Part shown: positions 44,619-59,303 of the stretch, in pieces
Layout: each line of letters opens with the position of its first letter
How positions within the stretch are numbered: position 1 is the first letter of the stretch
Origin: Gammaproteobacteria bacterium
GTDB taxonomy: Bacteria > Pseudomonadota > Gammaproteobacteria > Pseudomonadales > Halieaceae
NCBI GenBank assembly: GCA_009937065.1
Contig: JAACDF010000019.1
Location: 42,055-106,054 of the forward strand
Length of the DNA stretch: 64,000 bases
Direction of reading: 5' to 3'
Notes under the pieces: generated by a model
Told to the model about the DNA's origin: nothing
Database searches by the model: none
The model's input: the letters and a program-made list of their open reading frames with translations, nothing else
Translations under genes and position numbers: made by a program

Positions 44619-46088
44619 GTGAAAGTGTTTTCGGCAGGTCTCGCATTATCGACCGCATTGACAGCAGCGACACTCACACTGACCGTGCCATTGGCGTCGG
44701 GACAGGACCTGATGTTGGGTGCCTACGACCCCCGTCAGCAGGAAACACTCTGGAATGACGCCATCTACCTGCAAAGTAGTGGACAGCACAGCGAAGCCAT
44801 TGAAAAGCTTAAGCGCGCCGCACACCTAAGTCGCATAAACGATGGACTCAACGCGAAAAGTCAGCTCCCTTATCTCCGCGCCGAAATCGCCAGCCATCGC
44901 GCCTTGGAGCAGCTTGCTATTGCGGATGAGCGTCAGGCATACCTCTCCCGCATTGAATCAACAACGATTCCGTCGGGTCCGGAAAAGGTAAAAGCATTGC
45001 TGGCGCAGGCCGAATGGCATCAGTACGCACTGCTGCAGGATATTGACGAAGAAGAGGAAGCGACCGCCCGCATGGGCAAGGCATGGAACTTCTATCGTCG
45101 GGCGCTCAATGAATCGATAGCTACCTATGGCGAGGATTCGGAGGAGTTAATTCCAGCGCTTGAAGGGATGGTTCGTGCGCAATATCTACTGGCAAGTCAC
45201 CGCGGAATCGGAGCCGCTATGCCAGGAAAAATGGATCGTAACGCCACCAATTATGCTGCGGGTAAGAGCGCCTTTAAACGGGGCCTTGCTGTCCTTGTTG
45301 CGATGCAGCAACTCAATCGAGACCGCTTGGGCGTTAATCGTGAAATTCAAGCTGACGACCTGATTCGTATGGGTGACTGGGCGTGGTGGACCGGTAATCG
45401 AATGAACGCCATTAGTTTTTACCAAGATGCTCTCGCCCTCGCCAATGGCGAGAGTTTGGTAACAAGTGATGAAACAAATTCAGACACCAAGGAGAAAGTA
45501 CTTGATACAGTAGTGGACGAGGTGAATGGTGCCAGTGCGGTTAACGCTCCACGATCAAGCGGCGCTTCAAAGCCCGAGGTTAAAGAGACCGATATCGCTG
45601 ATAACGCAACACCACTTGCGCCGATGACGATTGCCGATGTGCAACGGGATCCACCTGAAACGACGAGCATTCCTGATCCTGTGGTCGAGATGACTGACGT
45701 TGACGGAGAGCAACTGGAAAGTGCCGTTGCAGTAGCATCGACGGAACTCTACCCAACCTTCCGTATACTTGATGCACCCGTAGCATTACCGGCAGTACCG
45801 GGCTTTGACCCCGTACTCGATATCAAGCAGGGTGAGCCCGCTGAAGGTGACCTGGTTGTGAGTTTCAATATTAGTATGACCGGTAAGGCAGTCAATTTGG
45901 AACGCATTCAGTTCCCAGCGGTCGAAGGTACGAGAGGTCCGGAACGCGTCATCCGACGGCTGAAAGAAATGCGTTTCAGGCCGGTATTCGAGGACGGTAA
46001 TCCAGCCGAAAGTGAGAGAATCACTTGGGTATTCGAACCGAAACACTGGGCAATGCCGAGAGCAACAACGACGGAGACATCGACATGA
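44619..46088 (+). CDS. Exported TPR-like protein with TonB-C-like terminal domain (operon gene 1)
   Basis: A 489-residue protein, starting at a GTG after GAGGA. A signal peptide covers about 1-28 (ending LASGQ). Residues about 40-290 are helical with TPR-like repeats: ETLWNDAIYLQSSGQHSEAIEKLKRA is the clearest unit (central part DAIYLQSSGQHSEAIEKL), and a later one is AISFYQDALALANG. A Thr/Glu/Pro-rich linker (about 295-395) follows. The last 90 residues resemble the TonB C-terminal fold: DLVVSFNISMTGKAVNLERI and RRLKEMRFRPVFEDGNPA. It could contact an outer-membrane partner. The gene overlaps the next by 4 nt. Confidence 0.75.
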   Translation: MKVFSAGLALSTALTAATLTLTVPLASGQDLMLGAYDPRQQETLWNDAIYLQSSGQHSEAIEKLKRAAHLSRINDGLNAKSQLPYLRAEIASHRALEQLAIADERQAYLSRIESTTIPSGPEKVKALLAQAEWHQYALLQDIDEEEEATARMGKAWNFYRRALNESIATYGEDSEELIPALEGMVRAQYLLASHRGIGAAMPGKMDRNATNYAAGKSAFKRGLAVLVAMQQLNRDRLGVNREIQADDLIRMGDWAWWTGNRMNAISFYQDALALANGESLVTSDETNSDTKEKVLDTVVDEVNGASAVNAPRSSGASKPEVKETDIADNATPLAPMTIADVQRDPPETTSIPDPVVEMTDVDGEQLESAVAVASTELYPTFRILDAPVALPAVPGFDPVLDIKQGEPAEGDLVVSFNISMTGKAVNLERIQFPAVEGTRGPERVIRRLKEMRFRPVFEDGNPAESERITWVFEPKHWAMPRATTTETST

Positions 46089-47221
46089 GTGTTAACGCAA
46101 TGAAGGGGCTTATTGCGGTGGCTGCGATTTTGCCAATCTTGGCGGGCTGTCCGTCGGCCAGTATGCCAACAACACCTTCAACCCCCTCTGCATCGATGCC
46201 ACCCGGCGGCAGCTCCGGATCTAGTGGCTCATCCGGGAGCTCATCTTCGAGCGGTGGTGGCTCAGGTGGTTCATCGAGTTCGTCTGGTGGGTCATCGGGC
46301 GGTGGTTCGTCCGCCGGCGGATCATCGGGCGGTGGGGCTTCGGGTGGAGGCTCATCGAGCTCCGGCGGCTCAGCGGGAAGTGGCAGCGCCGGTGGTGGTT
46401 CCGCGGGTGGCGGTATGCCTGGCGGAAGTCAGGGCAGTGGCTCAGGTGGCATGGAAAGCGGCAGCTCTAATGGGTCGGGCGACGGCGCCATGGCAGGGGG
46501 CGATCCTGGCTTTGGTGATTCCATCGGCGGTGATCTTTCACTTCCCAGTCTTGTCGATGAAGAGCCCGTCTACAGCGCCTCGTCTGGCAGCAGTGGTAAC
46601 GGCAGCGGGTCGAGTAACAGCTCCAGTAATGGAGGTGGGACCTCATCGGGTAGTGGCTCCAGCGGCGCGAGCGATGGAAGCTCTTCCTCTGGTGCCACCG
46701 AGGGGCAAGTTGCGTCTACTGCGGGCTCAGATGCAGGCCAAGGCGGTGGCACACGAGTACAGGGTGGTTTAGAGCCCGAGTGGGGAACTACGGACACCAT
46801 GACAACCGCAGAGCGTGTTGCAGTGCTCGATAGACAACTCGAAGAAAGCACTGGCGTGTTTGACGCCATCATTCGAGAAGAGCAACGTCAGCAGCGGACA
46901 AGTCGGCGAGAGCAAGGTGCCAATAATCAAAGCTCGGGTGACTCGGGAACCGAGCAAAGTTCAGGCGGTCGAAACCCTTATGAAGCAGATGAGCAAGGCG
47001 GTTACGGTTCTGTCGGCGGTGGCATGGGTGGACGTTCGGGCGGCGCACCTGATGCACCGGCGGTCTATGAGGCTCCCGAAGACATCCCATCCGGTAACGA
47101 CGACGACATAGTTGCACGTCAGCTTCGCGAGGCCGCTATGCGGGAGCCTGATACGGATATTCGTGAGGCGTTATGGAACGAATACCGAAAGTACAAAGGT
47201 ATTGAGATACCCGAAGAATGA
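46085..47221 (+). CDS. Ser/Gly-rich lipoprotein (operon gene 2)
   Basis: A 378-residue protein starting at 46085 (MSVNAMKGL), inside the stop region of gene 1 (ATGA overlap). The lipobox ILAGC places the lipidated Cys at 22. Residues about 35-145 and 180-225 are almost only Ser and Gly (repeats of GGSSG, SSGSS), a flexible or extended linker. Between them is SIGGDLSLPSLVDEEPVYS. The C-terminal third has charged, more ordered sequence: TTAERVAVLDRQLEESTGVFD and VARQLREAAMREPDTDIREALW (core QLREAAMREPD). No known family. The low complexity gives unreliable shadow frames on both strands. Confidence 0.75.
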   Translation: MSVNAMKGLIAVAAILPILAGCPSASMPTTPSTPSASMPPGGSSGSSGSSGSSSSSGGGSGGSSSSSGGSSGGGSSAGGSSGGGASGGGSSSSGGSAGSGSAGGGSAGGGMPGGSQGSGSGGMESGSSNGSGDGAMAGGDPGFGDSIGGDLSLPSLVDEEPVYSASSGSSGNGSGSSNSSSNGGGTSSGSGSSGASDGSSSSGATEGQVASTAGSDAGQGGGTRVQGGLEPEWGTTDTMTTAERVAVLDRQLEESTGVFDAIIREEQRQQRTSRREQGANNQSSGDSGTEQSSGGRNPYEADEQGGYGSVGGGMGGRSGGAPDAPAVYEAPEDIPSGNDDDIVARQLREAAMREPDTDIREALWNEYRKYKGIEIPEE

Positions 47222-48408
47222 TTAATCGGCTTACGACACTGCTAACTCTGCTGACTGTGCTTGGCGGATGTGTAACAGAGACTGTCAAAACAACTGCGGT
47301 GCCGACGCTGAGCACCTATGAGACATCACTACCGAGTGATGAGGTGCTCGATATTGCAGTGGTCGTTTTTGATCCGGGCATTGCGGAAGTGGATCCAGAG
47401 GAAGGTATCTACCCGGAAATTAGGCGCGCCGAGGCAACCTTTATGGCGAGAGAGCTTGCTCTCGTTCTGGATGATCAAGGCGTGTGGGGGGCGAGTCGAG
47501 TGGTGCCCTCCGCCGAACACATTACTGATGTCCTGGTCACTGGAGCGATAGAGCGGTCGGATGGCGAGGCGCTAGCCCTCGTAATTAAAGCTATCGACGC
47601 TCAGGGGCGCACCTGGCTCGATAAACAGTACGCTGGAACAACCAGTCGCTATGCATATCAACAGACTCAGCGCGTTAAGAAGGATCCGTTTCTCGCCGTC
47701 TATAGGGACGTCGCAAACGACTTAATCGCCGTTTTCAAATCGTTAGCCCGTCGTGATCGACTTGCCATCAGAGATGTATCCAAGCTGAAGTTTGCTCAGA
47801 GTTTCGCGCCAGAAGCTTTTAAAGGCTACCTCAGCGAGGGTGAGGGTGCGCTCACACACCCTGTCAGGCTTCCAGCAGAGAGTGATCCGATGATGTCCCG
47901 TATCGGTGCCATTCAACAGCGCAACCACATCTTCGTTGACACGCTGCAAGGTCATTACGATAACTTTTCCGGCTCGATGGATGGTCCCTACAATGAGTGG
48001 CGACGGTTGAGCTACGAAGAGACTGTCGCGTTACGTGAGCTTGAAAACGAGGCGCAGACCCAATTAATCATGGGGGGGATTTCTCTATTAGCGGGCATCG
48101 CGGCAGCTACGTCCGATGATCGTAATGTTAGGACTGCGGGCGCTGTTGGAATGTACGCGGGTGGTGGCCTGATTAAGAGCGGATTAGAGCGCAGGGCGGA
48201 AGCCAAAATTCACTCACTCGCTCTTGAGGAGCTAGGACAGTCGTTAGAAGCGGAAATCACACCTCAGGTGATTGAGCTGGAGGACCGAACCATCGAGCTT
48301 TCAGGTACGATTGAAGATCAATACGGCCAGTGGCGTGAGATCCTTAGTGATATCTACGCTGCGGAAATTTCTGAGCTTCCAACTGATATAAGCCAGTCCT
48401 CTCAATAA
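47218..48408 (+). CDS. Lipoprotein of unknown function (operon gene 3)
   Basis: A 396-residue protein, overlapping gene 2 by 4 nt (ATGA). The lipobox VLGGC puts the lipid at Cys18. The N-terminal half (about 45-190) is an alpha/beta domain (DIAVVVFDPGI, VVPSAEHITDVLVTGAIERSDG), of a kind seen in periplasmic proteins that bind other envelope factors. The middle has YLSEGEGALTHPVRLPAESDPMMSR; then GGISLLAGIAAATS is a hydrophobic segment of about 20 residues flanked by coiled-coil-like stretches. I recognise no family. Confidence 0.7.
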   Translation: MINRLTTLLTLLTVLGGCVTETVKTTAVPTLSTYETSLPSDEVLDIAVVVFDPGIAEVDPEEGIYPEIRRAEATFMARELALVLDDQGVWGASRVVPSAEHITDVLVTGAIERSDGEALALVIKAIDAQGRTWLDKQYAGTTSRYAYQQTQRVKKDPFLAVYRDVANDLIAVFKSLARRDRLAIRDVSKLKFAQSFAPEAFKGYLSEGEGALTHPVRLPAESDPMMSRIGAIQQRNHIFVDTLQGHYDNFSGSMDGPYNEWRRLSYEETVALRELENEAQTQLIMGGISLLAGIAAATSDDRNVRTAGAVGMYAGGGLIKSGLERRAEAKIHSLALEELGQSLEAEITPQVIELEDRTIELSGTIEDQYGQWREILSDIYAAEISELPTDISQSSQ

Positions 48409-48425
48409 ACGAGTCTTGCCGATAG

Positions 48426-49970
48426 ATGACAAACGATAGCAAAGACACGTTGCGCGCGGCGTCCTTTGAACCGAAAGCTAAGTCTCAAAGCGTCCAGGAG
48501 GTCCCGGATAACCCTCGACCAGTGGGTACGTGGATAGCACTGGCCAGTGGCGCCGTTTTGCTTGGGCTTGTCGTATTTGTCCTACCTCAATTTGCACCTA
48601 AACCCCAGATTCCGTCTTCATCAGACGCCAGCACTGCTGTGTCAGCTGCGCCAGCAGCTTCAATGTCATCAGCCGCTAGGCCGCAGGAGAGCGTTTCCGA
48701 ACGAAGCCCGTTCGCAGAAGCACAGCTCGCCAAAGTCCGACGCTCAGCTCAAGAGGTACTGCAATCATTACTGGAAACCCAGTCTCGACTCGAATCGCGG
48801 GGTGTTGATCAATGGGAAGAAGATGGTTTCACCGCGGCAAGTGCCATTGCAGTTGAGGGTGATGCGTTATACCGAGCGCAAAAATTTGATGAGGCCGAAG
48901 CCTTGTATCAACAAGCTCTTGACGCCTTGAATGCGCTGGAGGCCTCACTAAGCGACGAAATCGACAGCAGACTCGCTCTGCTGCTCGAGGCTATTGAATC
49001 AGGCGATGAAGCCACAGCCGACGCTATCGCACCCTTGCTTCAACAAATGGCACCTGACAGCGATGCCGTTTTTGACGCCGTTGAGCGTGTCCCCCTCATG
49101 CCTGAAATTGCGAATCTAGAAACGTCGGCTAAGGCGAGTTTCGAGCAAGGTGGCTTCGGCGAGGCGGTATCTCAAATCGCCGAGGCACTGCGGGTCGATC
49201 CCGTCCACCAGCGTCTGGCAGACGTCCTAAGGCAATACACGGTGGCACTGACAAATCAGCGCTTTGAAGATGCAATGACGCAGGGGTTCGCATTGCTGAG
49301 CGCTAGCGATTTCGCCAACGCTCGGACTTCGTTTCAATCTGCAAGACTAATCCTTCCCGCCGCCGATGGTCCCAGTGCTGCCCTGGCACAGCTTGAAGAG
49401 GCAGAAACCTTGTCTCGCCTGAATGCATTACTGGGTCGAGCCGCTGATTTATCTGCACAAGAGCAATGGGCAGAGGTAGTTGCTGTATTAGAAAAGGTAC
49501 TGGCCATTGATGCCAGTCTTGTTGAGGCGTCAGATGGCCTGGAAAAAGCCCGCCCATTGGCAGAGCTGTTTGCAAAACTGGATACGATCGTCGAGAAACA
49601 AGCGCGGCTGGTTGATCCCGTCGTGCTGAGTGAAGCCCAACTCTCTCTGTCAGAGGCCGAGACGGCGCTGGCGACCAACCCACAGGCATCGCCCCTGTTA
49701 GAGGAGAGAGTGATCGCTGTGCGATCGGCAGTGGCAACCGCCAGCACACCTTTGCCGGTACTTATTACTTCCGACGGCCTAACTGAGATAACCATCAAAC
49801 GCGTTGCGCGTCTCGGTGCTGTCTCATCGAGGACGGTGTCGCTTCGACCAGGCCAATATCAATTTCTGGGTAGCCGCGACGGTTACCGAGACGTGTTGGT
49901 CACTGCCAGTATCAACGCCGCATCCGATAATCGTATTGACGTCCGATGCGAGGAGACGATCATTCGCTAA
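48426..49970 (+). CDS. Membrane-anchored TPR protein with PEGA-like C-terminus (operon gene 4)
   Basis: A 514-residue protein. Cytoplasmic tail (1-32) contains ASFEPKAKS; one membrane helix lies at about 34-54 (WIALASGAVLLGLVVFVLP). The periplasmic part (about 90-440) is helical with TPR-like repeats: GDALYRAQKFDEAEALYQQAL, ANARTSFQSARLILP and WAEVVAVLEKVLAID. The last 70 residues form a beta domain (VSLRPGQYQFLGSRDGY) that resembles the PEGA domains of the next protein. Gene 5 starts on the last base of its stop codon. Confidence 0.75.
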   Translation: MTNDSKDTLRAASFEPKAKSQSVQEVPDNPRPVGTWIALASGAVLLGLVVFVLPQFAPKPQIPSSSDASTAVSAAPAASMSSAARPQESVSERSPFAEAQLAKVRRSAQEVLQSLLETQSRLESRGVDQWEEDGFTAASAIAVEGDALYRAQKFDEAEALYQQALDALNALEASLSDEIDSRLALLLEAIESGDEATADAIAPLLQQMAPDSDAVFDAVERVPLMPEIANLETSAKASFEQGGFGEAVSQIAEALRVDPVHQRLADVLRQYTVALTNQRFEDAMTQGFALLSASDFANARTSFQSARLILPAADGPSAALAQLEEAETLSRLNALLGRAADLSAQEQWAEVVAVLEKVLAIDASLVEASDGLEKARPLAELFAKLDTIVEKQARLVDPVVLSEAQLSLSEAETALATNPQASPLLEERVIAVRSAVATASTPLPVLITSDGLTEITIKRVARLGAVSSRTVSLRPGQYQFLGSRDGYRDVLVTASINAASDNRIDVRCEETIIR

Positions 49971-52051
49971 TGTCTAACGAGCGCAACCAATCCGAGTCCT
50001 TGTCACCCACGGCATTTGAACCTCGCAGTGAAAAGACAGTGGCGACAACTCGACGCCTTACACCAGCCACCGCATTGCTGGTTGTGGCGGGCTTGGTCAT
50101 CGCTTATGTACTGTTCTTCTTGCTCACGGCTCGATCGGTATCAGTCACTGTGGAGTCAGAAACGACACCTACTATCGATATCTCAGGACTGCATTTACCC
50201 TTCGGTGAGCGTTTCCTAATGAGGCCCGGCTCCTATGAGCTCAATGTCACCGCGGAGGGATATCAGACCTACACCGGGTCTTTACGCGTAGACGATGCCG
50301 AGGTGCAGACACGGGCGGTGGTGTTAACGCCTCTGCCCGGCACATTGATCATCGAGTCCATACCGCCATCAGCGACTGTGTCATTGAGCGGGACCGAGAT
50401 CGGCGTCACGCCCTTGACCATCGATGAGGTAGACGCGGGCGAGGTGACCGTGAACTTGGTGGCCGAGCGTTATCTCCCTTACGAGACCACCATTGAAGTG
50501 ATGGGCAGAGCCCAAACACAGCGGTTCTCTACCAGCCTGACTCCGGGCTGGGCTAGAGTGTCAGTCGAGACGATTCCTGCCGAGGTCTCAGTAAGCATTG
50601 ATCAGCAGAGCGTTGATCGGTCAGCGGTCACATCCAGCAAACAAGTAATCGAAGTGATGCAAGGAGCGCGCGAAATCACTTTCAGTGCGCCGGGCTATAT
50701 CGACGAGGTGGTCGAGCTAAAGGCCGTCGCTGATACCGATGTCGACCTCGGTACTATCGAACTCACACCGGCGGCGGGGATACTTCGTTTAACTTCTGTC
50801 CCCGCGGGCGCGGTTGTCACCCGCGATGGTCGCTTTGTCGGCGCCACTCCAACTGACGTAACTATGGAACCCGCGGCACGACATCGCATCGAGCTAAGAC
50901 GGGCGGGCTACTTGCCCGAATCATTTAGCCTCTCACTGGAAAAGGGTGCGAGCATCGACCGGCAAGTCGTTTTGTCACCGGCGCTGGGTGAAGTCGACAT
51001 CCAAGTCACACCCCGCAATGCCACCATTCAGGTCAATGGCGACGATCGCGGCAAGGGAAGTCAAATATTGGCCTTACCGGGTATAGAACAAGTAATTACC
51101 ATCAGAGCACCGGGGTACGCCAGCGTGGAAAAGCGCGTAACACCGCGCGCAGGGCTTAAACAACAGATCAGTGTGGCACTCCTGACAGAAGAAGAAGCCA
51201 GAAAAGCAGCCATCAAACCGGAGATAACCAGCTCGGTTGGTCAAACATTGCTCTTGATTGATCCTCAAGTGAGTCCGGTGAATGAGTTCACCATGGGCGC
51301 TCCTCGACGCGATGCCGGAAGAGGTGCCAACGAGGTCGAACGACCCGTTAGACTGACGCGTGCGTTTTACATGGCAACAACCGAGGTCACGAATGCGCAG
51401 TTTCGTCAGTTCACAGCGAATCATGAGTCGGGACAAGCCGGAGGTAAGAGCTTAAACCGCGAGCACCAACCCGCTGTACAGCTCTCTTGGCAGCAGGCGG
51501 CCAGCTTCTGTAATTGGCTAAGCGCGCGCGAGGGCCTAGCTCCCTTTTATACTGAGCGAGATGGCATCATCACCGGGTTCAACAGCACCTCAACCGGATA
51601 CCGTCTCCCAACCGAAGCTGAATGGGCGTTCGCGACCCGCGTACAGGGAGAGGGTATCTGGCGATTTGCCTGGGGCGAAGCCTGGCCACCTGAAGACGGC
51701 AGCGCCAACCTCGCCGATGCCTCCTCCGCGCTCGTCACAGGTCGCATCCTTAATGGTTACACTGACAACGTTGTCGTAAGCGCTGAGGTTGGAAAGTTTC
51801 CGCCCAACCCCAGAGGTCTATACGATATGGGTGGTAATGTCGCTGAGTGGGTCAATGACGTGTACCGGATTCCGGTACCTAATGAAGTAATTGAAGAGAA
51901 TCCGCTAGGGGATCCACAGGGCGATAACTACACTATAAGAGGTGCGAGTTGGAGCTTGAGTCGTTTGCGTGAACTCCGTCTGACCTACCGTGACTACGGT
52001 GAGCGTGGACGTGATGATGTTGGATTTAGGGTGGCAAGGTATGCAGAGTAA
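49970..52051 (+). CDS. Membrane-anchored PEGA-repeat / SUMF1 (FGE-sulfatase) domain protein (operon gene 5)
   Basis: A 693-residue protein starting at 49970 (TAATG overlap with gene 4). A cytoplasmic tail with TAFEPRSEK and one helix (about 34-53) precede the periplasmic part. Residues about 60-430 hold four or five PEGA-type repeats, for example SIPPSATVSLSGTEIGVTPL and SVPAGAVVTRDGRFVGATPT. Residues about 440-693 form a SUMF1/FGE domain: EVTNAQFRQF, YRLPTEAEWAFATR, YDMGGNVAEWVNDVYR, RGASWS and GFRVAR. The only Cys in this domain is in ASFCNWLS; the paired catalytic Cys of true formylglycine-generating enzyme are missing, so it is probably a structural or binding module. Confidence 0.85.
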   Translation: MSNERNQSESLSPTAFEPRSEKTVATTRRLTPATALLVVAGLVIAYVLFFLLTARSVSVTVESETTPTIDISGLHLPFGERFLMRPGSYELNVTAEGYQTYTGSLRVDDAEVQTRAVVLTPLPGTLIIESIPPSATVSLSGTEIGVTPLTIDEVDAGEVTVNLVAERYLPYETTIEVMGRAQTQRFSTSLTPGWARVSVETIPAEVSVSIDQQSVDRSAVTSSKQVIEVMQGAREITFSAPGYIDEVVELKAVADTDVDLGTIELTPAAGILRLTSVPAGAVVTRDGRFVGATPTDVTMEPAARHRIELRRAGYLPESFSLSLEKGASIDRQVVLSPALGEVDIQVTPRNATIQVNGDDRGKGSQILALPGIEQVITIRAPGYASVEKRVTPRAGLKQQISVALLTEEEARKAAIKPEITSSVGQTLLLIDPQVSPVNEFTMGAPRRDAGRGANEVERPVRLTRAFYMATTEVTNAQFRQFTANHESGQAGGKSLNREHQPAVQLSWQQAASFCNWLSAREGLAPFYTERDGIITGFNSTSTGYRLPTEAEWAFATRVQGEGIWRFAWGEAWPPEDGSANLADASSALVTGRILNGYTDNVVVSAEVGKFPPNPRGLYDMGGNVAEWVNDVYRIPVPNEVIEENPLGDPQGDNYTIRGASWSLSRLRELRLTYRDYGERGRDDVGFRVARYAE

Positions 52052-52397
52052 GTTTTGGGTCGGCGTGTTGTCGTTTGCAGGTGTCGTCCTGTTTGCCCAC
52101 GCGCAGGATGACACTTCTGCCTCGTCCAATGTTTCTAAAGATGAGGCGGTAGCGGCGGCATCCGCATCCGATTCGACAGGAGTCAACATAGTCAATGGTG
52201 GTGGTGTCGAAGCCACTGTGGAAGCACCAGACGAAGGACCTTTAAACGGTATTTTAAAAGGAGCTGATGGACCCTCTTCTGACGCACCGGGCCTACCGAT
52301 TGAAGACACCCCATCGGCCGCAACCGTGGATGACAACTACACACCCACCGAACGAATTAGCGAAGATCGATCCGTATCTTTTCCGGTTGATATCTAA
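52041..52397 (+). CDS. Small exported protein (operon gene 6)
   Basis: A 118-residue protein starting at 52041 (MQSKFWVGVLS), 11 nt before the end of gene 5, with a GGGTGG/AAGGT region ahead. The signal peptide is about 1-20 (cut AHA-QD). The mature part is acidic, rich in Ser, Ala, Asp and Pro, and probably disordered; it has no Cys. No family is recognised. It may be a linker or adaptor of the complex. Confidence 0.6.
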   Translation: MQSKFWVGVLSFAGVVLFAHAQDDTSASSNVSKDEAVAAASASDSTGVNIVNGGGVEATVEAPDEGPLNGILKGADGPSSDAPGLPIEDTPSAATVDDNYTPTERISEDRSVSFPVDI

Positions 52398-52408
52398 GGT
52401 GCATGCGT

Positions 52409-53212
52409 ATGTCTAAAACGAGAATCCCGTCAGAGTTTGCGTTTCAGCTATTAGCATTGCTTGCGGCCGTAATCGTCGTGCATGCCTTTTACGTAGGCTT
52501 GATACGACCCTCTGCCGATGTGCAACTAGCAGCACAAGCGGCTCTTCAGGCGTCGGGAGAAGCTTTTGTACCCGAGCGCTCGCTGTATGTTGTGATTCGA
52601 GATTTCGAGCAGGAAGCGTGTTTCATTCTCATGATCTGGGCCCTGGCGATCATGGGCCTCAAAGCATGGACGACGCGCGAGGAAACCACGATGCTCGAAC
52701 GCAACCTGATTGAAGTTAGCGAGGGCACAACCCTACTACCCCAGGATGCGAGAAATTACGCGCGCGGTATCGAAGCACTACCCGAAAACGAGCAGGAACT
52801 ACTTTTACCGCGAACACTGCTCAATGCGCTCAGCCGTTTCTCTACAACGGCCAGTATTCCTGCCGTCTCTGAAGCCGTACGCGAGCAATGTGATATTGAG
52901 GCAGACAAGCTCGACTCTGAATTATCGATGGTTCGGTACATCAGCTGGGCAATTCCATCTATTGGATTTATTGGAACAGTTCGCGGCATCGGAGATGCGC
53001 TTGGACAAGCCTACAAGGCGGTTGAGGGTGACATTTCAGGCGTAACAGTTAGCCTCGGGGTTGCCTTCAACAGCACGTTCGTGGCGCTGGTCTTGTCCAT
53101 CATCATCATGTTTGCGTTGCACCAGCTGCAGCTTTCGCAGGAACGACTGGTCCTGAACACGCAGCGTTATGTGGACAAGAAGCTCATTCGTCATCTGGCA
53201 GCGCCTAAATGA
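52409..53212 (+). CDS. MotA/TolQ/ExbB-like proton channel protein (operon gene 7)
   Basis: A 267-residue membrane protein. I choose the ATG at 52409 because AAGGTG lies 8 nt ahead; an ATG two codons upstream is too close to that site. Helices are predicted at about 11-31, 69-86, 178-198 and 214-237. The last two form the MotA/ExbB signature: IPSIGFIGTVRGIGDALGQA, then VSLGVAFNSTFVALVLSI. Residues between helices 2 and 3 form a large cytoplasmic loop (about 90-175). Such proteins use proton flow with a one-helix partner (MotB, ExbD, TolR) to do work in the envelope. The likely partners are the two VWA proteins below. Confidence 0.88.
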   Translation: MSKTRIPSEFAFQLLALLAAVIVVHAFYVGLIRPSADVQLAAQAALQASGEAFVPERSLYVVIRDFEQEACFILMIWALAIMGLKAWTTREETTMLERNLIEVSEGTTLLPQDARNYARGIEALPENEQELLLPRTLLNALSRFSTTASIPAVSEAVREQCDIEADKLDSELSMVRYISWAIPSIGFIGTVRGIGDALGQAYKAVEGDISGVTVSLGVAFNSTFVALVLSIIIMFALHQLQLSQERLVLNTQRYVDKKLIRHLAAPK

Positions 53213-54489
53213 GTCGTGCTTTCCTCGACCTCACCGATACTAGCCTGACGCTCAGCGACGGCCAGCGTATCTTCCGATCACCTGGCATCGCCTTTTCGCA
53301 GGCAAATGAGGTCGTATTTGGAGACGCAGCCTTTGCGCAACTCAAACGCAGACCACTGGACGTCCGAACTGACATACTTAATCAGCTTTCCACCGCGCCA
53401 CTGAGCAGTACATTTGGAAACGCGCGACACACGGCAGATTTGATCTACGAGCACCTCAAAGGTCTGCTCGCATCGATGGATCACCCGGAGGATCTCTGTC
53501 TCATCGCACCGGGAAACTTCGAACAAGCTCAGCTTGAGTTGCTATTGGGCATCCTGGACTCGCTCGGAGCGAGTCCTGCTGCGGTAGTCGACAGAGCGCT
53601 TTTGGCGCATCCCACACACTTGGGATCAGGTATTAACTTGAATCTACAGTGGCGACAATTGGTGGTAAGCAACGTCACCGTTAATGCCAATCAGTGCCGG
53701 GTAGAAAAAGTAACGGCTGTTCCCGGCATTGGCTATCTCGATTTACTTGAACTGTGCCTTGAAGAGTGCGCTGATGCCTGCATCGATCAAACACGGTTCG
53801 ATCCACGACGCAGTGCTGAGTCTGAGCAAACCCTGCTCGATGCCCTACCTGACCTCCTGGCATCGCTGGAAGGTCGCCCAGAGGTATCCGTTGAGCTTGG
53901 AACAACATCATTTAAAGTCTCGAGAAGTCGTCTTGAGAAAGCCGGACAAAAGATCGCATCAGTGATTGGAAATAAGACGGGGGTGATTAGCATCGATGAA
54001 TCGCTGTCGATGTTTCCAGGAATCAGATTTGATGCGGTTACGTCGATTGATTCTTTAACAGCGGCGGCGGCAGACCTATTGGCTGATCACCGAAGCGATG
54101 AGCCACTAACACGCATTTCCAATCGAGAAATAGCGGGAGCCGGGGCGTCCGCTGATGAGTCCACGACAACACCTGCCGCACTGGACATGACGAGCGAACC
54201 TACTACAGCCATTGAACGTCAGAAAAACGAGACACCTTTGGTGGATACACAGGGTGATCAGCCCACCCATGTTCTCATTGACGCCGTAGCACATCGTATT
54301 TCGGAAACAGACACCCAAGGCGCGGGGTTTGGTGTCGTCTACCGCGATGGTATTGCCTGCATCGACGGGTCACAGCGCGACCAAGTGAGTGTTCTGTCGG
54401 TCTCCGGTTCTCATGACCGGCTGACCGTCGGTAGTCGTTTATACCGTAACGACGGCAAGGAAGCCGTGCTCATTTTCGTCGAGTCGTAA
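53209..54489 (+). CDS. Cytoplasmic actin/Hsp70-like protein (operon gene 8)
   Basis: A 426-residue protein without signal peptide or membrane helix, overlapping gene 7 by 4 nt. The start FLDLTDTSLTLSDG, then RSPGIAFSQANEVVFGDAA and LKRRPLDVRTDILNQL, follows the layout of the MreB/Hsp70 phosphate-1 region, but the canonical DLGTT reads DLTDT. A later VELGTTSFKVSRSRLEKAG resembles the Hsp70 TRxxFE segment. A Thr/Glu/Ala-rich linker (about 305-350) leads to a C-terminal domain of about 75 residues. I infer a degenerate actin-fold ATPase or a pseudo-ATPase; no family is confirmed. Confidence 0.55.
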   Translation: MSRAFLDLTDTSLTLSDGQRIFRSPGIAFSQANEVVFGDAAFAQLKRRPLDVRTDILNQLSTAPLSSTFGNARHTADLIYEHLKGLLASMDHPEDLCLIAPGNFEQAQLELLLGILDSLGASPAAVVDRALLAHPTHLGSGINLNLQWRQLVVSNVTVNANQCRVEKVTAVPGIGYLDLLELCLEECADACIDQTRFDPRRSAESEQTLLDALPDLLASLEGRPEVSVELGTTSFKVSRSRLEKAGQKIASVIGNKTGVISIDESLSMFPGIRFDAVTSIDSLTAAAADLLADHRSDEPLTRISNREIAGAGASADESTTTPAALDMTSEPTTAIERQKNETPLVDTQGDQPTHVLIDAVAHRISETDTQGAGFGVVYRDGIACIDGSQRDQVSVLSVSGSHDRLTVGSRLYRNDGKEAVLIFVES

Positions 54490-54492
54490 ACG

Positions 54493-55584
54493 ATGCCCCG
54501 GCGGAAACGACAGGCCAATACATTCAATCTCAGCTTCCTGGACATTATGTCCTGCGGCTTTGGTGCCGTTGTTCTTGTATTCCTGATCATCGATCACTCG
54601 ATTGAGATTCAAATTCAGTCGGTAAACGCAGAGGTGCTATCCGAGGTCGATCTGCTGGAGGACGACATTCGAGAAGGTGAAGAGGGTCTCGTGCGATTGC
54701 GCAATGCGATTAGTAGTACCGACCTTGAGATTGTTGAAGCGCAGGGACGCGCACGCGTCGTTACCGAGGAGCTTGATCAACTAGAGGCGCTGATCGCCTC
54801 ATTAGAAGAATCGGATGTCAGCGAGACAACGGACCTCGAGGCCCTTAAAGCAGAGATCAACTCACTAGAGGAGCGAATACAGCAATTACGTGAAGCGGCC
54901 GAAGCGGATGGTGGTCGCAGCGCACGTGAGTTTCAGGGCGAGGGAAATCGTCAGTACCTGACCGGACTCAAACTGGGCGGTAATCGAATCGCTATTATGA
55001 TCGACGCGTCGGCGAGTATGTTGGCGCCCGAGGTGGTTAACGTCATTCGACTACGAAACCAATCGAGTGATAGGCAGCGCGCGGCTCGAAAGTGGGTGCA
55101 AGCCCTAGATACGGTCGATTGGCTGACGGCTCAACTGCCAACTGGCTCGCGCTATCAGATCATTCTGTTTAATACTGAGGCCCGATTTGCCCTCCCCGAA
55201 ACGCAGGGCAGATGGCTTGAAGTCGCCAACAGCGATCAAGTCGAGCGGGTGATCTCCGCGGTTCGTGAGACATTGCCCGCAGGCGGAACCTCCCTCTACA
55301 ACGCCTTTGCCTTTCTCAATGAGCTCGACAGCAAGCCCGATAATATTTTTATTATCACCGATGGATTACCGACTCAGGGAAAAGACGCGCCTCGAAAAAA
55401 TACCGTTTCGGGTCCCGCTCGACTGAAGCACTATCGCGATGCGATCGATAACTTACCGACCAACGTGCCGGTAAATGTGGTGCTCTCGCCCATGGAGGGT
55501 GACCCCATGGCAGCGTCTGAATTCTGGAAGCTAGCGCAGAATACGGGTGGCAGTTTCATGGCACCTGCGGAGGATTGGCCGTAA
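54493..55584 (+). CDS. Membrane-anchored VWA-domain protein, MotB/ExbD-like anchor (operon gene 9)
   Basis: A 363-residue protein. A basic N-tail is followed by one membrane helix beginning LSFLDIMSCGFGAVVLVF, with Asp17 at its cytoplasmic edge. This resembles the Asp-containing plug helix of MotB/ExbD/TolR. A coiled coil occupies about 50-138. The VWA domain (about 160-355) has a MIDAS motif DASAS at 171-175 and the later FIITDGLPTQG, so metal-dependent ligand binding is likely. It is placed in the periplasm by topology. Its stop codon overlaps the start of gene 10 by one base. Confidence 0.85.
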   Translation: MPRRKRQANTFNLSFLDIMSCGFGAVVLVFLIIDHSIEIQIQSVNAEVLSEVDLLEDDIREGEEGLVRLRNAISSTDLEIVEAQGRARVVTEELDQLEALIASLEESDVSETTDLEALKAEINSLEERIQQLREAAEADGGRSAREFQGEGNRQYLTGLKLGGNRIAIMIDASASMLAPEVVNVIRLRNQSSDRQRAARKWVQALDTVDWLTAQLPTGSRYQIILFNTEARFALPETQGRWLEVANSDQVERVISAVRETLPAGGTSLYNAFAFLNELDSKPDNIFIITDGLPTQGKDAPRKNTVSGPARLKHYRDAIDNLPTNVPVNVVLSPMEGDPMAASEFWKLAQNTGGSFMAPAEDWP

Positions 55585-56582
55585 TGCGAAAGCGTCGATC
55601 CGCACCTGAGATTTCACTGTCGTTTTTGGACGTTATTTGTTGCGGCTTCGGCGCCGTTATCTTGCTTCTGATGATCACCAAAACAGTGGAGCCCCAGGTC
55701 CTCGAAGAGTCAACGGTTATAGCGGAGGGACGCGTCGCGGAATTAACCCAGCAGCTATTTGAAATAAGGGGCGAAACGACCGTGCTCAATCGAGATCTGT
55801 CAGCAAAACGAGAACAGATATCGGAATTCGAAGAGCGAATTGCCGTTCTCCAGGGTTCGCTGGCATCTTCGAAGTCTCGTTATGACTCTCTACAAACAAC
55901 GCGGAATTCAAACAGCATTGTCGCTGAGCAACTCGCTATTGCACGCCAGGAGTTGAGCGATGAAGAAGAGCGATTACTCGGACGCGATGCTGAAAAGAAG
56001 AATCAACTGATTGGTGGCATTCCCGTCGACAGCGAGTACATCATCTTCATCATCGACACTTCGGGCTCCATGTTCTCCTATGCGTGGCAACGCATGCTGG
56101 GTGAAATGGAGGCAACGCTCAACATCTATCCCAATGTGAAGGGCATTCAGGTCATGAACGATATGGGGAACTACCTGTTTTCTCGCTACGCGGGTCAATG
56201 GATTCCCGACACCCCTGCGCGACGGCAGCTGATCTTGCGCAACCTCGCCAATTGGAACGCGTTTTCTAACTCGTCACCTGTGGAAGGTATTACACAAGCT
56301 GTCAGATCGTTTTATGACCGAGATAAGAAAATCTCCATCTACGTCTTTGGCGACGAATTTACCGGAAGATCGATCGAAGAAGTTGTGCTCACGGTGGATC
56401 GATTGAACGCCGAGGCCGGGACGGGGGAACGACGTGTGCGCATCCATGCAGTAGGCTTCCCCGTACAGTTTATAAGACCGCCCGAATTGCAGGATACGGG
56501 CATTCGTTTTGCTACACTCATGAGAGAGCTAACGCATCGGAATGGTGGGACGTTTGTTGGACTCAATGACTTTAGGCCGTAA
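55584..56582 (+). CDS. Second membrane-anchored VWA-domain protein (operon gene 10)
   Basis: A 332-residue protein starting at 55584 (TAATG overlap with gene 9). It repeats the plan of gene 9: basic tail, then ISLSFLDVICCGFGAVILL with Asp16, a coiled coil (about 45-135), and a VWA domain with MIDAS DTSGS at 158-162 and VFGDEFTGRS. Outside the membrane motif the two VWA proteins are clearly divergent, which points to an old duplication or a hetero-oligomer. It overlaps gene 11 by 17 nt. Confidence 0.85.
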   Translation: MRKRRSAPEISLSFLDVICCGFGAVILLLMITKTVEPQVLEESTVIAEGRVAELTQQLFEIRGETTVLNRDLSAKREQISEFEERIAVLQGSLASSKSRYDSLQTTRNSNSIVAEQLAIARQELSDEEERLLGRDAEKKNQLIGGIPVDSEYIIFIIDTSGSMFSYAWQRMLGEMEATLNIYPNVKGIQVMNDMGNYLFSRYAGQWIPDTPARRQLILRNLANWNAFSNSSPVEGITQAVRSFYDRDKKISIYVFGDEFTGRSIEEVVLTVDRLNAEAGTGERRVRIHAVGFPVQFIRPPELQDTGIRFATLMRELTHRNGGTFVGLNDFRP

Positions 56583-57234
56583 GGCGCAGCGTCTACTGAC
56601 GCTGATTACCCTCATCGCACTGGCGGCATGCTCGACCCGCGAAGTCGTTGTGGAAGGATCATTTCCAACACCTCTTGTCGATCCTGTACCGGTATCGGTA
56701 GGCATTTTATTCACCAAGGAATTCAAAGAGCATGAGCTAGTCGACGATGCCACCGGCCGCGGTGAGGTCAGCTGGCGCGTGAGCACAGGCACAGCACAGG
56801 TCGAGTTCTGGTCTACCCTCCTCCCCGCGTTTTTTCACAATGTGGTGTTCATCGAGAGCTACGAGGACCTGCAGACCTACGATGTCGATGCCGTCCTCAT
56901 TCCAAAAGTGGCCGACGTACAGTACGCCATCCCCCTGTACACCAACGTGAAAGTTTATGAGATCTGGATGCGCTACAACTTGGCGCTCGTAGAGCCAGAG
57001 CAAATTATCGACAAAGAAAATTCCACCATCTCACTGGAAAATATTCAGCCTTTTGCTGAGTGGCCACTGACCGCCTACGGAAAGACCCCCACCGCCTTCA
57101 TGCAATCAGATAGTGATGCAGTCAATTTGGCAGCGGTTATGGCTCTGCGCGATGCTGGTGCCAACTTTATTACCAGCTTCCTACGTGTCCCTGGCGTGAT
57201 GGATTGGATTGATAATCCCGAGGAGGCTCAATGA
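56566..57234 (+). CDS. Lipoprotein of unknown function (operon gene 11)
   Basis: A 222-residue protein. The ATG at 56566 (MTLGRKAQRLL) gives a compact lipoprotein signal with lipobox LAAC (Cys22); an ATG eight codons upstream is also possible. The mature protein (about 200 residues) has alternating beta and helical segments (VSVGILFTKEF, DAVLIPKVADVQYAIPLYTNV, LAAVMALRDAGANFITSFL), reminiscent of the periplasmic lipoproteins that work with outer-membrane assembly, but no family is recognised. It overlaps gene 10 by 17 nt and gene 12 by 4 nt. Confidence 0.7.
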   Translation: MTLGRKAQRLLTLITLIALAACSTREVVVEGSFPTPLVDPVPVSVGILFTKEFKEHELVDDATGRGEVSWRVSTGTAQVEFWSTLLPAFFHNVVFIESYEDLQTYDVDAVLIPKVADVQYAIPLYTNVKVYEIWMRYNLALVEPEQIIDKENSTISLENIQPFAEWPLTAYGKTPTAFMQSDSDAVNLAAVMALRDAGANFITSFLRVPGVMDWIDNPEEAQ

Positions 57235-57890
57235 AGCGCGCACTGCTCTCTGTTTTTTTACTGGGCGGCTTACTCGGCGGCTGCGTAACCGCCAATGTCG
57301 ATGAAATGACCTTTGATGCGCCGGTCGCGGGTATGACCGATGGCAGTATTGTTATTCTGGGTAGACGCCACGCGCCCGATTACGATACCGAGCCCGACTT
57401 TATAGATTGTATTGGCAGTCATATAAGCCGTGGCAGCGAAAATATTAACGTCATTCCAGAGGGACAGTTTGTCGATGCCATGTACCCCTGGTTCGAGCCG
57501 CGGACTGCGCCATTAAGCATCGAAAGCGTTGGTCGACTAATGGTGCTCCCCAGCGTTGCGGGCAAGCTGTCGGAGTTGGATCTCGATTACATGATCTGGA
57601 TTGATGGCCGAACTCAGGATACCAATAGCAGTGGCTCCATGACCTGTGGCGTCGGACCTACCGGCGCCGGATGCTTTGGTTTCGGGACCTGGGGTACCGA
57701 GTCCGAGTACGAAGCCACCATATGGAACTTTGATGCCGGTGCCGAGGTCGGAAAGATGAGTGCCTTAACCAGTGGACAAAGCTACATGCCTGCCGTTGTT
57801 GTTCCTATTCCCATCATTGCGCCAGTTCAGGATACTGCCTGTGACAGCTTGGGAACCCAGCTGTTGCAGTACCTGTCTGCCGGGTCGTAA
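57231..57890 (+). CDS. Lipoprotein of unknown function (operon gene 12)
   Basis: A 219-residue protein with lipobox LLGGC (Cys18) and ATGA overlap with gene 11. The mature part contains IVILGRRHAPDYDTEPDFIDC and a Gly/Cys-rich turn (TCGVGPTGAGCFGFGTWG), followed by YEATIWNFDAGAEVG. Four further Cys could make two disulfides. The sequence suggests a compact beta-rich domain; no family is recognised. Confidence 0.7.
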   Translation: MKRALLSVFLLGGLLGGCVTANVDEMTFDAPVAGMTDGSIVILGRRHAPDYDTEPDFIDCIGSHISRGSENINVIPEGQFVDAMYPWFEPRTAPLSIESVGRLMVLPSVAGKLSELDLDYMIWIDGRTQDTNSSGSMTCGVGPTGAGCFGFGTWGTESEYEATIWNFDAGAEVGKMSALTSGQSYMPAVVVPIPIIAPVQDTACDSLGTQLLQYLSAGS

Positions 57891-57893
57891 GCC

Positions 57894-59303
57894 GTGAAAC
57901 GAATTATTGCCTCGCTTTGCCTGGCCGCATTCATCGTAGGCTGTGCGGGATCATCGACCGTTACCGTGGGTGGGCGTCCGGTGAACATTCCAACCGATGC
58001 CGCTGAAGAGCACGAGAAGCTCATTGAGAACATCGGTATCTATGACGATCCGGAGTTACAGGCCTACATTGACGAAATCGGTGCGCGATTAGTTGCCAAC
58101 TCCAGCATGCCCAATCAGGACTTCACTTTTACGTTGCTGGACTCCCCTGACATCAATGCGTTCGCCCTGCCCGGCGGTCTCATCTACATCAATCGAGGTC
58201 TGCTCGCCTACCTCGATAGTGAGGCGGAGCTTGCTGGGGTGATTGCACACGAGATCGGGCATATCACCGAGCGGCACCACTCTCGTCGCAGGACACAGAC
58301 GATTACCAATCAGGTGGCGGCCGTATCGGCGTTGATCCTAACCGGATCGGGTGATCTATATGACGCAACAAGCATGTACGGCGCAGAGCTCATCTCAGGC
58401 TTTGGTCGCGATATGGAACTCGAAGCTGATGCGGCCGGCGCTGAATTCATGCATAAAAGCGGATACGACGCCGATGCCTTGTTGTCGGTAATCGGTGTCC
58501 TCAAAGACCAGGAGCGTTACCGGAAAGCCGTTGCCAAGGCCTCTGGCAAGCCCTCCGGTACATACCATGGGCTATACGCCAGTCACCCGAGAAACGACCT
58601 GCGGCTACAAACCGTCATCAAGACGGCCAACAGTTTAGATCTCGACATGATGCCCGAGAACCCAGAGTTGCCGGGGCGGTTCAGGCGTGAAACCGAGGGT
58701 ATGGTGATCGGCGCGAGTGCCGAGGCGCAAAGTGACCCTCTGCGTTACTACCACAACAAACTGGACTTCACGTTTGAGCACCCCGAAGGCTGGCTTGTCA
58801 CTGCAACCACGCGGGAAATTGTCGCTCAGGCCCCCGACTCCGATGCAGCGCTCAAAATCAAAATAGCGAAAGTCGATCCTGATAAAAGCCCCAATGACGC
58901 CCTCCCTGAACTTGCCTCTGGTGAGATCAGTGGGCAAGAGTCCATTGAGAATGAAGGTCTCAAGGGTGCGACGGCACTCGCAAGCACTGCCGGCGTTCAA
59001 AAGCGTTTGGGTATTATTGATCATCGATTCCGATTCTTGTTCGAGGGCGAGGCCAGTGACTTCAGCACCGCCGACGAGGGATTCAAAACCATTATCGCTT
59101 CTTTCAGGCCGCTATTCGCCAGAGAGAAAAAGCGCGGTGAAAGCCACGTATTGAACTACGTTCAAGTACCGAGAGGTGCTACTTTCGGATCGATGAGCTC
59201 GGGCGTTCGAGTGCCTGATGCAGAAAACCAATTGCGCTTGATTAATGGCTACTACCCCAGTGGCGAGCCGCGTACTGGTGATTGGTTAAAAGTCCTTCGA
59301 TAA
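57894..59303 (+). CDS. M48-family metalloprotease lipoprotein (operon gene 13)
   Basis: A 469-residue protein starting with GTG at 57894, 3 nt after gene 12. The lipobox IVGC gives a lipid at Cys17. The M48 domain (about 40-255) shows the zinc motif HEIGH at 119-123 and the third ligand Glu175 in ELEADAAG. It resembles BepA/LoiP-type proteases that handle outer-membrane proteins. Residues about 270-405 form an added beta domain (FEHPEGWLVTATT), a C-terminal extension not found in the smallest members; GYYPSGEPRTGDWLKVLR closes it. It is the last gene; the next begins 59 bp later with its own ribosome-binding site. Confidence 0.88.
   Translation: MKRIIASLCLAAFIVGCAGSSTVTVGGRPVNIPTDAAEEHEKLIENIGIYDDPELQAYIDEIGARLVANSSMPNQDFTFTLLDSPDINAFALPGGLIYINRGLLAYLDSEAELAGVIAHEIGHITERHHSRRRTQTITNQVAAVSALILTGSGDLYDATSMYGAELISGFGRDMELEADAAGAEFMHKSGYDADALLSVIGVLKDQERYRKAVAKASGKPSGTYHGLYASHPRNDLRLQTVIKTANSLDLDMMPENPELPGRFRRETEGMVIGASAEAQSDPLRYYHNKLDFTFEHPEGWLVTATTREIVAQAPDSDAALKIKIAKVDPDKSPNDALPELASGEISGQESIENEGLKGATALASTAGVQKRLGIIDHRFRFLFEGEASDFSTADEGFKTIIASFRPLFAREKKRGESHVLNYVQVPRGATFGSMSSGVRVPDAENQLRLINGYYPSGEPRTGDWLKVLR

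Follow-up and report, generated by a model that had tools for sequence, protein, structure and literature searches.

The locus described here is a run of thirteen genes (g1-g13) on the + strand, at positions 44619-59303 of a 64,000-nucleotide stretch of DNA, hereafter the window, which is part of a 2.76-Mb genome. Close channel-profile matches of the window are Luminiphilus and other Halieaceae records, and the operon is also carried by cultured Halieaceae and Microbulbifer isolates. No relative was found among plasmid records. The run holds a gene for a MotA/TolQ/ExbB-family channel and a pair of genes for VWA-domain proteins, in the following order (fractions give the loci in which a gene was found):

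g1, 44619..46088, + strand: exported TPR-like protein (489 aa) that opens the cluster; conservation is weak.
g2, 46025..47221, + strand: Gly/Ser-rich, lipoprotein-like; the core has a homologue (in the minimal form a small secreted protein).
g3, 47218..48408, + strand: lipoprotein of 396 aa without a Pfam family; core, 57/58 loci.
g4, 48426..49970, + strand: N-terminal TM helix followed by periplasmic TPR; core, 63/64 loci.
g5, 49946..52051, + strand: TM helix at the N-terminus, five stretches of PEGA domain and a C-terminal FGE-like domain; core, 68/69 loci.
g6, 51990..52397, + strand: small, poorly conserved ORF, probably secreted.
g7, 52409..53212, + strand: MotA/TolQ/ExbB-family channel with four hydrophobic segments; alternative ATG at 52403.
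g8, 53209..54489, + strand: protein of 426 aa with a predicted actin/Hsp70-NBD fold, predicted to be cytoplasmic, and a small C-terminal beta domain.
g9 (VWA1), 54493..55584, + strand: TM helix bearing Asp17, then a coiled coil and a MIDAS-containing VWA domain.
g10 (VWA2), 55584..56582, + strand: TM helix bearing Asp16, then a coiled coil (40-135) and a VWA domain that has MIDAS motif 1 and D257; TTG also at 55575.
g11, 56542..57234, + strand: lipoprotein, accessory; 63/63 close loci, not in the minimal forms.
g12, 57231..57890, + strand: lipoprotein, accessory; 63/63 loci.
g13, 57894..59303, + strand: M48 metallopeptidase, accessory; 44/54 loci.

An earlier, sequence-only reading of this DNA had recognized a MotA/ExbB-like channel paired with two VWA proteins. 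All three are indeed present, but the intervening gene g8 (53209-54489) went unmentioned. The g7 product scores 51.9 bits against PF01618 (curated cut-off 22.9; E 8e-14) and has a GTV stretch that aligns with TolQ. Conservation was assessed on 80 loci found by the channel profile together with five loci from other genomes, and all 86 channel sequences keep Thr190 and Thr223, two threonines of the last two helices. None of the PADLOC defence models matched the cluster in a meaningful way, and a Zorya system (ZorA with a ZorB partner) was considered and dropped since the hit, at E 0.0085, covered no more than a generic part of the channel.

Both VWA proteins begin with the basic tail reported earlier (MPRRKRQ in VWA1, MRKRR in VWA2), followed by the shared motif LSFLD...CGFGAV, although the spacer, earlier given as one or two residues, is three residues long in both (LSFLD-IMS-CGFGAV and LSFLD-VIC-CGFGAV). 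Asp17 of VWA1 and Asp16 of VWA2 (numbered from the ATG at 55584) occupy the positions first ascribed to them and open the only strongly hydrophobic segment of each protein. The retention of this residue in homologues, on which the idea of a proton-carrying plug helix depends, is complete (79/79 VWA1 and 74/74 VWA2 sequences). Among about 160 other ORFs whose N-terminus forms a hydrophobic helix, 7 have an Asp at the same place. The cysteine of the motif is dispensable, as some helices in a second lineage read FLDIMASGLGA or FLDIISSAFAA with the Asp retained. From the basic N-tail, and by the positive-inside rule only, the VWA domains are predicted to be periplasmic (N-in/VWA-out), in agreement with the earlier proposal. 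The two proteins are paralogous, with BLASTP E-values between the types mostly from 1e-7 to 1e-15 across relatives. PF13519 matches VWA1 at E 2e-7, while VWA2 lies under the Pfam VWA cut-off (E 0.06) and owes its assignment to an AF2 model and Foldseek: a helix at residues 14-34, a long coil at 40-135 and an alpha/beta domain matching VWA domains. Model confidence is low over most of residues 1-42, so that the membrane helix of VWA2 rests on hydropathy and conservation. The MIDAS residues are retained in both proteins, D171, S173, S175 and D290 of VWA1 in 77/77 sequences (with T266 present as T or S) and D158, S160, S162 and D257 of VWA2 in 71/71. The PF13519 search also found two more neighbouring VWA-domain ORFs on another contig of the genome (G000:C98:10311-11623).

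The three genes are tightly linked across genomes. Counting only loci with enough sequence, searches starting from the channel find VWA1 in 68/68 loci, VWA2 in 65/65 and g8 in 68/68, and VWA1 and VWA2 co-occur wherever enough sequence exists. This co-occurrence is compatible with the hetero-dimeric pair suggested earlier, without proving one. Starting instead from the motif, the back-translated pattern FLD[VI]xxCGFGA occurs 33 times in a set of 369 genomes of Gammaproteobacteria, 24 of which have at least one match, and its reversed control is absent among the matches listed for the same search. The expected tie between the motif and an ExbB-like gene is borne out, with the channel in the operon in 22 of the 23 genomes besides that of the window. 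The sole exception (L198, G637:C5:5000-23000) retains g2, g4, g5, g8 and the VWA pair; tblastn finds no channel within the region read, and MotA_ExbB genes occur on other contigs of that genome. In two relatives of this locus (L196 and L197), from one family, the channel is placed after VWA2 and not before the VWA pair. Given the homology of VWA1 and VWA2, the invariant Asp, the base rate of such an Asp in other ORFs and the control pattern, the channel/VWA1/VWA2 pattern is not a chance feature.

In nine genomes the surroundings of the cluster contain no ExbD gene; the ExbD genes of these genomes sit on separate contigs or at a distance of tens of kilobases. PF02472 (ExbD/TolR) matches neither VWA protein at E 0.1, and the match of the VWA helix to the ExbD profile is not significant in hhalign (probability 2.5%), although Asp aligns with Asp. 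The replacement of ExbD/MotB by the VWA proteins as channel partner, the central proposal of the sequence-only reading, is nevertheless well supported by the invariance of the Asp and Thr residues, the near-constant linkage and the lack of ExbD near the cluster. If the VWA proteins instead bound the side of the channel in the manner of TonB/TolA, the true plug would be an ExbD encoded elsewhere, and the host genome does have ExbD-family proteins at other loci. Each of these ExbD genes, however, shares its contig with another ExbB-family gene, and the VWA helix has an Asp of the ExbD type but no SHLS motif, the very features by which VWA types are separated in PMC12204202. Side-binding is therefore very improbable.

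The composition of the operon varies in a way that delimits its core. One genome (identified as HTCC2080) carries a second, minimal copy (L029, G016:C18:1-12000) beside the full one, consisting of g3, g4, g5, the channel, VWA1 and VWA2, and the same set recurs at loci L143-L146 and L149, which belong to a less closely related group within the same phylum. A g2-like gene accompanies most of these minimal loci, while g8, g11, g12 and g13 were undetected in them. The content of the minimal loci defines the core as g2-g3-g4-g5-g7-g9-g10, and this core is common to a second, distant proteobacterial lineage. The g2 product of the window (46025-47221) contains a long Gly/Ser-rich stretch and a conserved segment.

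The fold of g8 emerged from structure rather than sequence. A search of its sequence against the PDB gave only weak FHA and other matches, while its model (pLDDT 89) matches the nucleotide-binding domains of DnaK/BiP in Foldseek at E 1e-13, with weak FHA-like matches to the C-terminal part. The glycine motif of phosphate-2 is seemingly missing, the consensus at the expected glycine-rich loop being LELQLHQ (position assigned by eye), and this makes an ATPase activity doubtful. The gene diverges much faster than the channel (about 21-75% against 60-96% identity to the window copies) and its position is fixed. A predicted cytoplasmic location and the weak FHA-like tail suit a different role for the cluster, in which the VWA pair would gate or sense: a regulated ion pathway or mechanosensor, with the plug freed by a MIDAS ligand and g8 relaying the signal to the cytoplasm. 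The conserved MIDAS residues of both VWA proteins point the same way, as does the link between a VWA domain and surface sensing by type 4 pili that PMC9210963 reviews. On the other hand, g8 is missing from the minimal forms and force-generating channels have just this set of invariant Asp and Thr residues (PMC12204202), and we regard gating as quite unlikely.

GldKLM/PorKLM of the Bacteroidota combine a motor driven by the proton motive force with a non-enzymatic FGE-like periplasmic protein, and the FGE-like domain of g5 offers a lead towards such a design. Its catalytic Cys (after the GNVxEW motif) is absent in 75/75 sequences, and among solved structures PorK/GldK chains come closest to it (E 1e-19), followed by true FGE at about 1e-13. 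The score against the NCBIfam GldK model TIGR03525 is 96.9 bits, far under the cut-off of 350, and this match is discounted because an unrelated PvdO-like, FGE-like control protein from a related genome (L209) matches the GldK model too, at 1e-29. In the PDB the control prefers PvdO and FGE, which leaves g5 an affinity to PorK that is only modestly specific. The domain may hence hint at a T9SS-motor-like design, not at membership of that system. The cluster could still be a trans-envelope machine like the T9SS/gliding apparatus, moving or secreting at the cell surface, where the channel and VWA pair would correspond to the GldL/GldM motor and the PEGA-FGE protein to the GldK/PorK ring or track; that g3, g4 and g5 travel with the channel and the VWA pair in two distant lineages is in line with this. 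With the sub-threshold GldK match and the modest specificity of the PorK affinity counting against it, such a machine is unlikely; it would be a narrower version of the motor explanation given below and does not exclude it. Equally improbable is the proposal that the whole operon forms a single machine across the envelope, controlled by the cytoplasmic g8, whose hetero-dimeric VWA plug drives both a PEGA-FGE scaffold resembling PorK/GldK and the outer-membrane lipoproteins; it would be a proteobacterial counterpart of the T9SS/gliding motor made from other parts.

The cluster probably encodes a motor of the inner membrane, driven by the proton motive force and of the 5:2 type (MotAB/ExbBD/TolQR), in which a VWA1:VWA2 plug acts on a periplasmic scaffold and lipoproteins. 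The analysis establishes the gene content, the invariant residues, the predicted folds of VWA2 and g8, the linkage and the lack of ExbD near the cluster; from these we infer the subunit stoichiometry, the flow of ions, the movement, the contacts and the role in the cell, as follows. A pentamer of the MotA/ExbB-like protein would enclose two membrane helices, one from VWA1 and one from VWA2, and each helix would bind the transported ion through the Asp at its cytoplasmic end, facing the Thr ring of the channel. Ion flow would move the VWA pair, whose periplasmic MIDAS domains may, via the coiled coils, exert force on a scaffold made of the g4 TPR and g5 PEGA-FGE proteins or bear its load. The outer-membrane lipoprotein g3, and in close relatives also g11 and g12, would be engaged, and g8, where present, probably acts at the cytoplasmic face. 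Counting against such a motor are the VWA pair without a channel at L198, the lack of significance of the helix/ExbD profile match and the mostly low confidence of VWA2 residues 1-42.

The essence of this replacement has been put forward before. In PMC12204202 (Mol Biol Evol 2025, msaf138), heterologous pairs named 'TPH-vWA' are proposed as replacements of ExbD/TolR: the vWA proteins, tethered by a TMH, are tightly linked to tolQ homologues without tolR/exbD, and their transpore helix has a conserved Asp, the pair of which is set in the Thr ring of the channel in AF3 models. The proteins described here show the same traits, that is, an N-terminal helix with a conserved Asp and the VWA domain outside (topology by the positive-inside rule only), and a heterologous pair beside a tolQ-like gene with no tolR/exbD near. 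Since msaf138 already predicts that VWA proteins stand in for ExbD, the idea first raised for the window is correct in outline and not new. The main text of that paper contains neither 'PEGA' nor 'formylglycine', has 'actin' only inside 'Actinobacteria' and does not treat the wider operon. What we add is the definition of the operon and its division into core and accessory genes, the PorK-like FGE domain of g5 that lacks the catalytic Cys, g8 as a partner with an actin fold, and the counts of conserved residues; some of this may stand in the figures or supplement of that paper. A search of the open-access literature found no functional study of the system.

To our knowledge, the number of ion-driven 5:2 motors described so far is small, and every one of them drives a central process of the envelope. 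The conserved operon points to g3, g4 and g5 as the likely load-bearing partners, and with partners named and invariant residues to mutate, the published prediction of a force transducer becomes directly testable.

Compared to the known systems, the cluster shares with ExbBD/TolQR a PF01618 channel and an Asp that starts the single helix of the partner, but a coiled coil and VWA domain here replace the ExbD/TolR fold and the two partners differ from each other. MotAB likewise has a channel with four hydrophobic segments and an Asp in the partner helix; unlike MotAB, no OmpA-like domain was found in the partner here and the operon is without flagellar genes. The resemblance to GldKLM/PorKLM lies in the pairing of a motor driven by the proton motive force with a non-enzymatic FGE-like periplasmic protein, whereas here PEGA repeats tether the FGE domain to the inner membrane, a VWA domain forms part of the motor partner and other T9SS partners are not seen in the operon. 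The SHLS-type vWA transducers (PMC12204202) are similar in having membrane-tethered VWA proteins adjoining tolQ-like genes; they still occur with tolR genes and have a helix that binds the side as TonB does, whereas the present helices bear the Asp instead. With TPH-vWA (msaf138) the cluster has in common the TolQ-like channel, the VWA pairs, the transpore Asp, the Thr ring and an occurrence in Proteobacteria, the reference organism being Idiomarina there and a Halieaceae relative here.
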